A model generated the notes under the pieces. That model was not told the DNA's origin and made no database searches. It saw only the letters and a list, made by a program, of their open reading frames with translations. From a virus: a stretch of 30,610 nucleotides of DNA. The stretch covers positions 1-30,610 of the IMG/VR virus record IMGVR_UViG_3300010885_030133; one strand, given 5' to 3'. The translations under genes were made by a program, and so were the position numbers. Shown here one piece after another: positions 852 to 5,001 of this stretch (the stretch's first letter is position 1; each line of letters begins with the position of its first letter).

Positions 852-2651
852 TTATATGTACCGTGATTTGAAGTAAGAAGATACTGTATTATCAGTATTT
901 CTAATAGGAGTCTTAAAGAATCCTTGTTGATTTGTTTTATTATTGGTAACAGGTGCACTAACTACTATTGGTGCTGATGGAGCAGATTTATTTTCAGCTT
1001 TAGCTTCGGCATTTTTTCCTGATTGGTTATAGACGTTTGCTGCTGTGGTAGGGGCAGGTGGAACTACAGAACCATTAGATACTATAGGATTGCCTGCTGC
1101 TGTGGTAGGGGCAGGTGGAACTACAGAACCATTAGATACTATAGGATTGCCTGCTGCATCTGTTGCTGGTACTACTGCAGGAAGAGGCTCAATTGCTGTC
1201 ATAGGAGCTTTAGTTTCTGGTATTGCTGCATTAGAAGTAACATTAGAGTTTTTATTTGTTACTGCAGGAGGTGCACTAGCAGAAGATCCTGCTGATTTTT
1301 CATCACCAGCAAATGGATGCCATGGTCCAGCTCCAAATTTCTTCCCAAAAACTTCAAACCCAATTGCTGGAATTTCAATTCCTTTAAAGAAATTAACAAC
1401 AGAGCTAAACATGTCTCTAATCATTTCAATAGGACTAAAGATGGCGTCAACAAAACTCTTAAATATATCTTCAAGACTAAATGACTTTAATAGATCTTTT
1501 GCTTTATCAAATCCAAATATTCCTAGGATCCAAGCAATAGCATCTTTAATCATATCAAGTGGGCCCATAATTAAAGAATTAACCAATCCAGTAATTGCAC
1601 CCTTAATTCCACCAATAATACCATCCTTGGCAAAACCTTCCATTGTACCTTTTACGGTATCCCATAAGGTCATAATAATAGTAATAGGTAAAAACAGTTT
1701 ACCAACAATACCAGCAACTTTACCAATACTCTTTGCAAATGTACCAAAATATTGGCCGATTGCAGAAAATGTACCTTTAATTCCTTCTACGGCTTTACCT
1801 ACAGGTCCTGCAAACATCTCTCCAATTATCTTAAAGGCATCAGTAAATGCATTCACAAATGGCATAACAAATTTCATTACACCGTCTTTAATTGCTTTAA
1901 GCTTACTGACTACTGCTTTAAATCCTTCTTCAATAGCATCAAATACAGCGCCTGCTTCTCCGCCTGAAAATGCTTTGAACGCCCCTTTAATCTTGTCAAA
2001 TGTTCCTGTGAAGAACTTGACTACTCCTTCTAATGCCATTCCTATTCTATCTTTTACAATATTTACTAAACCGCCAAAGAATTCACCAACTTTAAGCAAT
2101 CCACCTTTAACTGCTCCAATTAGTTTATCAACTCCTAATGCTTCTGAAAATAATTTAATAGCTTTAACTTGAGCCCTGATGACACCAATAAATGTACCTA
2201 TAACCACTGCCACACCAGTCATTATACCACCAAGTCCACCAAAATCCGGTAAATTAGAAGCAGCTGCGGCATCCGGTTTAGGTGTAGTATTTTCAGCAAT
2301 TTGATTTAATAGTTTAGTTTGCTCATCTTGTATTTTTTTATTTTCTATATCTGCTTCAGATACATCAGTTTGCTTAATTGGGCTAGAAAGAATCTTTGTA
2401 TTATTGTCTACTGCTTGTGTTAATTTAACTAGATTATTTGCTGTTTGATGCGTTGCTTGATTAATACCTTGTAATTCAACTATAGATTGTTCAGTTAAAT
2501 CGCTGGAAATTTCCTCTATTTTAATAGATTCTTTTTCAGCTTTTTCAATAGCACTAAGTTGGGCAAGAACAAATGCACTCATACCGCCAGTCTTATTGGC
2601 TTCCTGAGACTTAATAATATCCTGTAAGGTGATTTGTTCTGTTTTTGCCAT
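852..2651 (-). CDS. 29: Tail tape measure / baseplate hub protein (gp29-like)
   Basis: This 599-aa protein is almost the length of T4 gp29 (590 aa), which sets tail length and leaves the tail on injection. Residues 1-125 are polar and helical (coiled-coil like). Residues about 135-425 are a long run of amphipathic and hydrophobic Gly/Ala-rich helices (for example VIGTFIGVIRA, FLPITIIMTLW, AIAWILGIFGF), typical of tape measures. Residues 450-599 are low-complexity Ser/Ala/Pro/Asn-rich. The tail contains two perfect 19-residue copies (AAGNPIVSNGSVVPPAPTT, about 499-536). It starts at ATG 2651, overlapping by one base the stop of the 46-codon ORF, and is last in the minus-strand operon behind gp26, as tape measures usually follow their chaperones. 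Assignment rests on composition, length and position; direct sequence similarity to T4 gp29 is not evident by eye. Confidence 0.75.
   Translation of the reverse strand: MAKTEQITLQDIIKSQEANKTGGMSAFVLAQLSAIEKAEKESIKIEEISSDLTEQSIVELQGINQATHQTANNLVKLTQAVDNNTKILSSPIKQTDVSEADIENKKIQDEQTKLLNQIAENTTPKPDAAAASNLPDFGGLGGIMTGVAVVIGTFIGVIRAQVKAIKLFSEALGVDKLIGAVKGGLLKVGEFFGGLVNIVKDRIGMALEGVVKFFTGTFDKIKGAFKAFSGGEAGAVFDAIEEGFKAVVSKLKAIKDGVMKFVMPFVNAFTDAFKIIGEMFAGPVGKAVEGIKGTFSAIGQYFGTFAKSIGKVAGIVGKLFLPITIIMTLWDTVKGTMEGFAKDGIIGGIKGAITGLVNSLIMGPLDMIKDAIAWILGIFGFDKAKDLLKSFSLEDIFKSFVDAIFSPIEMIRDMFSSVVNFFKGIEIPAIGFEVFGKKFGAGPWHPFAGDEKSAGSSASAPPAVTNKNSNVTSNAAIPETKAPMTAIEPLPAVVPATDAAGNPIVSNGSVVPPAPTTAAGNPIVSNGSVVPPAPTTAANVYNQSGKNAEAKAENKSAPSAPIVVSAPVTNNKTNQQGFFKTPIRNTDNTVSSYFKSRYI
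1038..1157. repeat. 57-bp perfect tandem repeat (about 2.1 copies) in the tape-measure gene
   Basis: Copies begin at 1039 and 1096 with period exactly 57 bases and no mismatch seen; the match dies a few bases into a third copy near 1157. The period is a multiple of three, so the reading frame is kept and the protein gains a second 19-residue Pro/Val/Asn-rich unit. Identity at third codon positions points to a recent duplication. Confidence 0.95.
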
Positions 2652-2791
2652 TACCTGTTACTCTCTATTCGTTGTTTTTCTTCTTCTAAATATTGTACTA
2701 ACATTGCAACATAAACTTCTCTCTCAAATGGTATCATATTTTCTATATCAGCTAATGAATAATTATGGTATTGCATCAGCGCAAAATTCAT
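2651..2791 (-). CDS. 46-codon ORF between gp26 and tape measure; probable -1 frameshift extension of gp26
   Basis: The ORF reads MNFALMQYHNYSLADIENM then PFEREVYVAMLVQYLEEEKQ and RIESNR, stopping at TAA 2653-2651, which overlaps the tape-measure ATG by one base. The ATG at 2791 has no Shine-Dalgarno sequence. The same frame is open upstream without a stop to the T-run at the end of gene 26 (2833), adding LINLSHESLYNFYK. It therefore most likely reaches the ribosome by -1 frameshifting, giving a gp26 fusion of about 297 residues. Helical, acidic and basic short extensions like this just before the tape measure are usual in the tail-assembly chaperone pairs of other phages (lambda G/GT, P2 E/E+E'). 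It sits where T4 has gene 51, but similarity to T4 gp51 is not claimed. Independent initiation at 2791 remains possible. Confidence 0.8.
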   Translation of the reverse strand: MNFALMQYHNYSLADIENMIPFEREVYVAMLVQYLEEEKQRIESNR

Positions 2792-2829
2792 CTTATAAAA
2801 ATTATAAAGTGATTCATGAGAGAGATTAA

Positions 2830-3543
2830 TTAAAAAAAACTGTTAAGGCCCTCTAACACTTTATGGTGTTCTTTATTACATACTGGACACTTATAATCAA
2901 TTGCATGCTTTAACTTTGGCATGGTTTCAAAAAATGTTTGAATTTTTTCAAATTGATCAGATGTTAAGTTATTAAGAAATTCAGTTAATTCTGTTTTGCT
3001 TTGATCCTTAGCCGCAAATACTTCTGTTGAATTGTAGATATAATCAATACATTCAACAACGATATTAAATACTGAATCTATATCATTTGTATTTAATGAC
3101 TCTAGCTTTTTTACAACTTCCATTGTAGGATATTTCATTGTAATACCTACGTCATCAAACAATTCAATTTTAGTAGTATGATTTTCTGGTGTTTGTACGT
3201 TTAACTTAAGCAGATCAATTTTTACTGGAGTTATAGCTTTTTCATCTACGCATGTATCACATTTAAGAGTAAGATCAATAACTTCTCCTACAGATCTAGC
3301 TCTAATTTGAGTAAAAACATACTCTAAATCGAATGTAGCAAGAGCATTAACATCAATGTCATCCTTTACGCATGATTTAATTACTTCTTTAAGAGAATCA
3401 ACCATAACAGTTGCATCTTCAGATTGCTGTGCAATCAATAAAGCTTTCTCTTCTTTAATCAAAAAGGGTCTAAATTTTATTTGCTTCTTAGTTGAAGGAA
3501 CTGTTAAGCTATAAATTGGTGTACTATTAATTGGTAATGCCAT
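2830..3543 (-). CDS. 26: gp26-like baseplate hub assembly protein / tail-assembly chaperone
   Basis: The 237-aa product has the characteristic N-terminus of the T4 base plate protein family (PF12322 type): MALPINSTPIYSLTVPSTKK then FRPFLIKEEKALLIAQQSED. The middle is helical; CDTC sits near residue 131 and CPVC near residue 220, giving four cysteines that could bind one zinc. T4 gp26 (208 aa) is needed to build the baseplate hub. The ATG at 3543 is preceded by GGGAGA and lies one base after the gp16 stop. The protein ends GLNSFF at a slippery T-run, and a -1 shift would add 60 residues. Position directly before the tape measure fits a chaperone of the tape measure. Confidence 0.92.
   Translation of the reverse strand: MALPINSTPIYSLTVPSTKKQIKFRPFLIKEEKALLIAQQSEDATVMVDSLKEVIKSCVKDDIDVNALATFDLEYVFTQIRARSVGEVIDLTLKCDTCVDEKAITPVKIDLLKLNVQTPENHTTKIELFDDVGITMKYPTMEVVKKLESLNTNDIDSVFNIVVECIDYIYNSTEVFAAKDQSKTELTEFLNNLTSDQFEKIQTFFETMPKLKHAIDYKCPVCNKEHHKVLEGLNSFF
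2833..2854 (-). promoter_or_regulatory. Candidate programmed -1 ribosomal frameshift site at the end of gene 26
   Basis: On the minus strand the zero-frame codons are AGT TTT TTT TAA. This gives the slippery heptamer T_TTT_TTT at 2839-2833 directly before the stop codon. An SD-like AGAGGG lies at 2854-2849, nine bases upstream of the heptamer, similar to the stimulator spacing known for E. coli dnaX. A slip of -1 leads into TTA ATT AAT and on through the 46-codon ORF without a stop. Only a weak AT-rich hairpin is visible downstream. The run of eight T residues could also permit polymerase slippage. Confidence 0.75.
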
Positions 3544-3544
3544 A

Positions 3545-3982
3545 TCATTCTCCCGAATTCAGTTTTTGAATCATTTTATTGAGTTCGCTGGTTGACCCAA
3601 CGAATATCGCGTTATTATTTGTTACATTTTTAGCTGGATCTGCGCTATCTTTAGCACTAGGTGTATCCAACTTTTGTTTCTGTTTATGCAACTCAAGTAA
3701 TTGACTATTTATGTCACTTAACTGTTTAATTAAATTGCCAACTACTTCAAAGGCTCTAGGATGTTCAGAAGATTTTGCAACCTCTAAGGCATGCATTAAA
3801 GCTTCTTCACCTGTCTGTAATAATCCATGTAGGTTACTTCGAGTCTTGTCATAGTCATGTTCAATCTTTTCAGATTGTTTATCCGTATGAGGTAATACAA
3901 CCTCTCCTGTTCGCATAATGACTTCACCTTCTTTCACAGGTTCCATATCAAATACCTGTGACAAATTATTATCAATTTTCAT
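3545..3982 (-). CDS. 16: Terminase small subunit (gp16-like)
   Basis: The 145-aa protein matches T4 gp16 (164 aa), the DNA-recognition part of the packaging motor that regulates the gp17 ATPase/nuclease. Matching pieces are DYDKTRSNLHGLLQTGEEAL (T4: DYGVVRRNMHFQQQML), AKSSEHPRAFEV, the helix SDINSQLLELHKQK, and the C-terminal NNAIFVGSTSELNKMIQKL (T4: QNATVFMGSPTELMDEI). The central part is two helices expected to form the antiparallel coiled coil of the oligomeric ring. It lies between the holin and gp26 on the minus strand, apart from any gene 17, which is absent from this window. In T4 genes 16 and 17 are adjacent, so the placement is a rearrangement. Confidence 0.9.
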   Translation of the reverse strand: MKIDNNLSQVFDMEPVKEGEVIMRTGEVVLPHTDKQSEKIEHDYDKTRSNLHGLLQTGEEALMHALEVAKSSEHPRAFEVVGNLIKQLSDINSQLLELHKQKQKLDTPSAKDSADPAKNVTNNNAIFVGSTSELNKMIQKLNSGE

Positions 3983-3983
3983 T

Positions 3984-4277
3984 TTATTTTTCTTGTTCCT
4001 CTGAACTAGTTAAACCCATCATTTTTTCTTGGCCTCTACTCCAAGCAGTAATACCTAACACAGCACCCATTGCCATATGGAATAAACCAGCGCCCTGTAG
4101 AGTTAGTGGATTCCATGCTGTTATTGGTTGCACATGTACATAAGCTTGAAATACTGCCCAAGCAATAGGAAATAACATAAAGTCGCAAATACAAATTGCC
4201 ATGTACATCCATGCCATAGCAGGACGCCACTTACTGGTTAACCAAGTTTCTTGATTTAATTTTTTACTTGTAACCAT
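3984..4277 (-). CDS. Putative holin (small membrane protein, 3TM/GTA-type)
   Basis: The 97-aa protein has a basic N-terminus with KWRPAMAWMYMAICICDF, a hydrophobic segment at about 19-45, a second hydrophobic stretch at about 61-78 (GLFHMAMGAVLGITAW) and a charged C-terminus (RGQEKMMG...EEQEK). The WRP motif followed by a membrane helix is typical of the 3TM/GTA-type phage holins that permeabilise the inner membrane at lysis. It starts one base after the stop of the tail-tube gene and ends one base before gp16, so it is in the late minus-strand operon. No separate endolysin is present in the window. T4 holin (gene t) is unrelated. Function is inferred from topology and motif only. Confidence 0.72.
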   Translation of the reverse strand: MVTSKKLNQETWLTSKWRPAMAWMYMAICICDFMLFPIAWAVFQAYVHVQPITAWNPLTLQGAGLFHMAMGAVLGITAWSRGQEKMMGLTSSEEQEK

Positions 4278-4278
4278 T

Positions 4279-5001
4279 TTAAGTAAATACGCTTCCTAGT
4301 GCAGTTGTAACATTAGAAGGTTCTGTTTGATATAAATTTGCTCGAGCATTTTCAAATGAGTTTACGCTTCCTTGATAATTAGGAAAGTCAGTAAAATAAT
4401 CATTAGGTATAGCTGCATTTTCTAATTGTTTTTCATTTACATCAACTTCATTTTTAGGATCAGTTGTGTATGATAGCCAATATTTGTAATTCATTGAAAC
4501 TTGTAATTTCATTACTTCTTTTGCTGAATAATCCATGGTGATTGCACCAATAGATTTTGGATAGCATTCATATAAATCTACTTGATATCTTTGTTGAGAA
4601 TTAATATCAAATACCTTTAAAGATATATCTGTTGTGTATCCAGTTGGGCCTTTATAATAATTAAATTTTCTAGTAAATGGATTTTGTATAGAGTTAATCC
4701 AAGTATCAAAGAATAGTTTAGTATGCATTCCATTATCAACATAAAAATTCATTGTTACATTATCAAACAACCTTTCATATGGCATTTCTCTGATTTCGCC
4801 AAATGTTCTAGCTTGCGTTGTGGAAATATTCATTCCTGGTAAAGTAATACTATCGCAATACAATAAAATTTTACGTAAATCCCCAACATAGAAATTATTA
4901 GCCTTAATAACATTTGGCATACCTATTTCTACTTCAAATTTTGAGGATCCCATTAACCCTTCAGCGGCTACTGATCCAATAAAATCGTTTAATGTACTCA
5001 T
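4279..5001 (-). CDS. 54: Tail-tube family protein, probable baseplate tube initiator (gp54-like)
   Basis: The 240-aa protein has a tail-tube fold signature (T4 gp19/gp54 type): an N-terminal SSKFEVEIGMP strand, LLYCDSITLPGMNISTTQAR, REMPYERLFDNVTMNFYVDN, FFDTWINSIQNPF, then YECYPKSIGAITMDYSA and a closing strand VSMNYKYW. These proteins form hexameric rings; gp54 sits on gp48 and starts tube polymerisation. Its length lies between T4 gp19 (163 aa) and gp54 (320 aa). The C-terminal 50 residues are polar and extended. It overlaps the preceding gene by ATGA (5001-4998). A true tail tube (gp19) cannot be excluded, but the setting among baseplate genes rather than beside a sheath gene favours gp54. 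Confidence 0.72.
   Translation of the reverse strand: MSTLNDFIGSVAAEGLMGSSKFEVEIGMPNVIKANNFYVGDLRKILLYCDSITLPGMNISTTQARTFGEIREMPYERLFDNVTMNFYVDNGMHTKLFFDTWINSIQNPFTRKFNYYKGPTGYTTDISLKVFDINSQQRYQVDLYECYPKSIGAITMDYSAKEVMKLQVSMNYKYWLSYTTDPKNEVDVNEKQLENAAIPNDYFTDFPNYQGSVNSFENARANLYQTEPSNVTTALGSVFT

Follow-up and report, generated by a model that had tools for sequence, protein, structure and literature searches.

Frameshifting between the tail genes G and T is described as conserved among long-tailed phages, with the exception of T4, in the relevant part of a 2016 review (PMC5009743). In lambda, gpG and gpGT come from two overlapping frames between the tail tube and tape measure genes, joined by a -1 shift shortly before the first one ends (PMC5009743). 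For T4 itself, a 2010 review lists gp51 as essential, of unknown function and not a component of the particle (PMC3004832). Vladimirov, Gautam and Davidson (2022, Virology 566:9-15) are cited by two later papers for the identification of tail assembly chaperone genes in T4-like phages: the citing statement in PMC10885494 is that some of these phages have separate genes for a short and a long (fused) form, and that in PMC12846349 is that T4-like short-form genes carry poly-T -1 signals. A poly-T shift at the corresponding locus of phage Adele was itself inferred from a -1 frame that is open in all genomes, according to the part of PMC12846349 concerned with it.

The window analysed here is a whole 30,610-base virus fragment (IMG/VR record IMGVR_UViG_3300010885_030133). 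As in the lambda G/GT arrangement, its gp26-type gene lies directly upstream of the tape measure gene and downstream of the tail tube gene; tube, gp26, extension and tape measure follow one another in that order on the minus strand:

4279..5001, minus strand: tail tube family gene, upstream context (phrog_45, tail tube, E 1e-38).
2830..3543, minus strand: gp26-type gene, 237 aa, the probable short form of a tail assembly chaperone, with profile matches to PF12322 and phrog_150 (T4 baseplate hub subunit family).
2849..2854, minus strand: SD-like element AGAGGG, separated from the heptamer by nine bases, CCTTAACAG.
2833..2839, minus strand: slippery heptamer T_TTT_TTT, within a run of eight T, in frame at the end of gp26.
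2830..2832, minus strand: zero-frame stop TAA, directly after the heptamer, as read from the sequence.
2651..2833, minus strand: -1 frame extension, 60 aa, predicted C-terminal part of the long form and homologous to the gp51 C-terminus.
2651..2791, minus strand: 46-codon ORF that makes up the later part of the extension; it has an ATG of its own (2791), not preceded by a Shine-Dalgarno-like sequence.
852..2651, minus strand: tape measure protein gene, 599 aa (phrog_1272, tape measure, E 3.4e-6).

In profile searches the gp26 product matches PF12322 over residues 9-237 (E 1.6e-66, 224.6 bits against a cut-off of 24.5) and phrog_150 (E 2e-72), and the 599-residue product matches tape-measure families weakly. 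The latter also carries a tandem repeat of about 19 residues, with AAGNPIVSNGSVVPPAPTT present twice (window about 1040-1130, minus strand). Between the tail tube gene and gp26, at 3545-4277, sit a small-terminase-type gene and a holin-like gene; in the cyanophages examined, by contrast with these two intervening genes, gp26 lies close behind its upstream gene.

The end of gp26 reads, on the minus strand, ...GTG TTA GAG GGC CTT AAC AGT TTT TTT TAA TTA ATC.... The first-pass annotation had described a T_TTT_TTT heptamer met at once by the stop, AGAGGG nine bases upstream (2854-2849), a -1 frame open from 2833 to a TAA at 2653-2651 that overlaps the tape-measure ATG, and a 46-codon ORF whose ATG lacks a ribosome-binding site, and each of these descriptions holds. 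The site thus has the in-frame X_XXY_YYZ heptamer of a programmed -1 shift as well as an upstream SD-like stimulator, which is optional in such sites. It is not a chance assembly: the run of eight T is the only one on either strand of the window (8.8 expected in shuffles), GAGG-N10-T7 occurs once, against 0.03 expected, and the heptamer returns in most relatives (82 of 86 clusters, below). As a broader property, this DNA is poor in runs of at least seven T or A, with about a quarter of the number found in dinucleotide shuffles (T7, 7 against 27.9; T8, 1 against 8.8).

The -1 frame begins with TTA at 2833 and its 60 codons consist of LINLSHESLYNFYK followed by the 46-codon ORF; the final stop shares one base with the tape-measure ATG at 2651 (TAATG), and the peptide predicted across the gp26/extension junction is FFLINLSHESLYNFYK. 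Profile searches align the extension, from its third residue onward, with phrog_634 ('baseplate hub assembly catalyst', gp51) at E 3.7e-25, and also with the C-terminal columns 236-277 of phrog_150. Judged from this homology, the extension corresponds to the C-terminal part of T4 gp51 and is not a lineage-specific addition. An independent gp51-type gene, with translation restarting at the ATG at 2791 (reinitiation or coupling) once gp26 has ended, would account for the presence of that ATG, for the annotation of the ORF as a separate gp51 in several cyanophages, and for the separate gp51 of T4. But the ATG is residue 15 of the extension, and homology to gp51 begins 12 residues ahead of it; conserved residues reach upstream of the start codon, and no Shine-Dalgarno-like sequence is found before it, in TTATAATTTTTATAAG. 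Within the window clade, the 13-codon stretch from the gp26 stop to this ATG carries 32, 16 and 91 substitutions at the first, second and third positions of the -1 frame (91 of 139 at the third), and 80 synonymous against 34 non-synonymous codon changes summed over pairs. This third-position bias resembles that of the rest of the extension, and the substitution pattern indicates that the -1 frame is under protein-level purifying selection before the ATG. Nor would an independent gene explain the fixed heptamer, and T4's separate gp51 itself includes the whole gp26-type domain. Together with the number of relatives in which a start codon is missing (38 of 82 clusters, below), these points make an independent gene very unlikely, and the 46-codon ORF is probably not a separate gene.

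The junction was compared across relatives drawn from three IMG/VR locus sets and annotated isolates, which supplied 143 distinct junctions whose flanking sequence was long enough; Stenotrophomonas phage IME-SM1, in which gene 26 overruns its usual end and the junction cannot be placed, was left out of the counts. In 139 of the 143, T_TTT_TTN is present in frame, with at most two codons between it and the gp26 stop. After clustering at 85% nucleotide identity it is found in 82 of 86 clusters, compared with 34.2 +/- 4.3 expected from codon choice, although sequences within a clade are related and the cluster counts are therefore not independent even at this level. The expectation was derived by encoding the same amino acids with each gene's own codon usage, and the maximum reached in 100,000 simulations was 53. 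An SD-like tetramer (GAGG, GGAG, AGGG or AGGA) lies upstream of the heptamer in 68 of the 82 clusters, against 41.5 expected by synonymous recoding, and nearly always starts at -15 to -12 nt from it. The stop (TAA or TAG) directly follows the heptamer in the window clade and comes one codon later in most cyanophages, where the run is only six T long and the T_TTT_TTC phase is kept.

The 16 close IMG/VR relatives all retain the T-run, GAGGG and the open -1 frame. This bears on the reading of the split as a homopolymer sequencing or assembly error in a gene that is really one continuous frame: homopolymers are prone to length errors, but these relatives were assembled independently and have the same length and frames, isolates with six T show the same two frames, and the zero-frame stop is kept throughout. 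We regard an error as having a negligible probability. The proposed -1 shift instead agrees with the wider sample, in which the T-run and the open -1 frame are kept and the SD-like element mostly so, as the earlier annotation had suggested checking. About half of the relatives offer no codon at which a separate small protein could begin: in 38 of 82 clusters ATG, GTG and TTG are all absent before extension residue 18.

The heptamer is not universal, because the enteric Ackermannviridae and Vibrio phages Kuja and K352 lack a standard one although their -1 extension is retained. Vibrio phage Bakedbeans has T_TTT_TTC, and its extension is related to those of the heptamer-less phages. Four Ackermannviridae loci (L024, L113, L217 and L218, set against L219) have the extension following gp26 in the -1 frame with a degenerate slip site (ATT TTC ATT TAA and similar), and Kuttervirus and Taipeivirus share an identical 34-base block that spans the junction. 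The treatment of this region in databases varies. S-PM2 has the same gene order, with gp51 annotated as a separate -1-frame ORF just after the gp26 stop; the records of S-CAM4, S-WAM1 and one ACG-2014d isolate have no annotated gene at the extension; and none of the database records examined annotates one joined gp26/gp51 gene. Gene callers lose such extensions, as these three records illustrate.

The elements flanking the heptamer differ between clades. In several cyanophage clades a stem-loop of up to 16 pairs stands just downstream of the stop, and over the 82 clusters downstream folding has a mean z of -1.54 relative to synonymous recoding, whereas three control stretches give -0.56, -0.42 and -0.03. 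All 18 sequences of the MAH clade share the stem-arm codons GCT, GAG, TCA and TAC but differ in their loop codons. In the FY type cyanophage clade the helix pairs in 88% of cells, against 30-53% when slid, and covariation is weak, with only one pair changing on both sides. Folding for simple stem-loops found no stable downstream stem in the window (MFE -3.1, z -0.09). A downstream stem-loop was accordingly rejected as the stimulator in the window; a stem-loop or pseudoknot is common at programmed -1 sites but optional, and the lack of a stable stem does not disqualify this one. From the sequences, the window clade seems to rely on the eight T and the SD-like element, and perhaps also on the adjacent stop.

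RNA polymerase slippage could also act on a run of eight T, yielding mRNAs one base longer or shorter and a fusion without ribosomal frameshifting; the window clade has such a run, and it is the sole one in 30.6 kb. However, most cyanophages have only six T, in the preserved T_TTT_TTC phase, and polymerase slippage usually needs a longer run. Ribosomes are also indicated by the SD-like element and stem-loops next to the site, and we consider a transcriptional origin of the fusion highly improbable.

The protein predicted from ribosomal slippage is one that another branch of the family encodes outright, because the fusion aligns with natural gp51 across the junction. T4 gp26 and gp51 are two divergent genes, and T4 gp51 (249 aa) matches PF12322 over residues 1-201 (E 7.7e-55) and continues into the extension in one ORF. 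This is the same succession of gp26-type domain and conserved C-terminal extension, in one frame in T4 and in two in the window. A profile of the predicted fusions aligns to natural gp51 proteins over 236 columns (hhalign, E 6e-25), gap-free at the junction, where GLNSFFLINLSHES pairs with DIVDVFKLLVNPDE. Proteus phage PM2 and Aeromonas Aes012 have the same gene pair as T4, whose two genes probably arose by duplication. Vibrio phage Va1 has a second arrangement of the two-gene solution, with short (216 aa) and long (230 aa) gp26/gp51-type genes in tandem before the next large gene (L117:1311-2653).

The predicted structure of gp26 also resembles known chaperones. The AlphaFold2 model of the window protein (pLDDT 87) has as its top match the tail assembly chaperone of HK97, 2ob9 (Z 7.8 over 84 residues at rmsd 3.9, identity 11%), followed by 3fgx (Z 7.6) and 5ir0 (Z 5.2), with unrelated chains from 2.7 down. 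A model of a natural long form, gp51, also gives 2ob9 first (Z 4.8) and has a helical extension. The chaperone match stood out only in a second look with VIA-align; Foldseek against the PDB returned no significant match for the gp26 or long-form model, a sequence-profile search of the PDB yielded no convincing hit, and NCBIfam gave nothing useful. The modelled chaperone fold is supportive and not proof, because Z is just under 8 and the match is confined to the N-terminal 85 residues. It is nevertheless in keeping, along with the identity of T4 gp51 as a natural gp26-plus-extension gene, with the first-pass suggestion that gp26 is the T4-type counterpart of the lambda G/GT chaperones.

Given the conserved heptamer, the selection on the -1 frame ahead of the start codon, the colinearity with gp51 and the HK97-like fold, gp26 and its extension are therefore very probably a T4-type G/GT tail assembly chaperone pair produced by -1 frameshifting; sequence and homology data bear on the same point. 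What we infer is the occurrence of slippage, its rate and the roles in assembly. The gene 26 product would be the short form of the chaperone. A minority of ribosomes would slip back by one base on the last two codons, TTT TTT, within the eight U, where AGAGGG behind the site could pair with the ribosome and the stop codon stands next in line. In ribosomes that slip, translation would continue for a further 60 codons and yield a long form of 297 residues, in which gp26 is fused to a gp51-type domain. On the model of lambda gpG and gpGT, many short and few long copies may cover the tape measure protein, whose gene follows, and the extension may recruit the tail tube subunit.

The route by which the pair is produced may also have changed several times, a tentative proposal to which we give rather less than even weight: several cyanophage clades would slip with the help of a stem-loop; the window clade would do so without one, on eight U accompanied by an SD-like element and an adjacent stop; enteric Ackermannviridae would have the degenerate ATT TTC ATT TAA, and T4 two genes. 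If so, slippage in the window clade would depend on no stimulator beyond the SD-like element and the stop codon just ahead. The family offers a natural series from frameshift to separate genes, along which the ratio of short to long form, critical in lambda, can be compared and tested.

The finding has precedent, because later papers cite Vladimirov et al. (2022) for chaperone genes of T4-like phages, for their poly-T sites and for the two-gene solution. A frameshift-made chaperone is already known in T4's wider family, and on sequence grounds the window is a strongly supported further case. This study adds quantified conservation, clade-specific stimulators and the window member itself; possible novelties are the statistics on stem-loops and SD-like elements and the variant that lacks a stem. 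The T4-like chaperones cited from Vladimirov et al., gp26 and gp51, belong to the same protein family as those of the window (PF12322, phrog_150/phrog_634) and likewise have short and long forms. The overlapping frames and -1 shift between tube and tape measure are shared with lambda, whose slip site is G_GGA_AAG; that of the window is instead poly-T, with an SD-like element. HK97 gp13 (2ob9) is the best structural match to the N-terminal domain of gp26, which has about 150 more residues after the shared domain. The Pakpunavirus/Vandenendeviridae phage Adele resembles the window in its conserved poly-T -1 shift before the tape measure, but belongs to a different phage family, and its motif is given as GTTTTT (PMC12846349). 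In T4, finally, gp26 corresponds to the short form and gp51 to the long form as one continuous gene, whereas the window has one gene with a T_TTT_TTT slip site.
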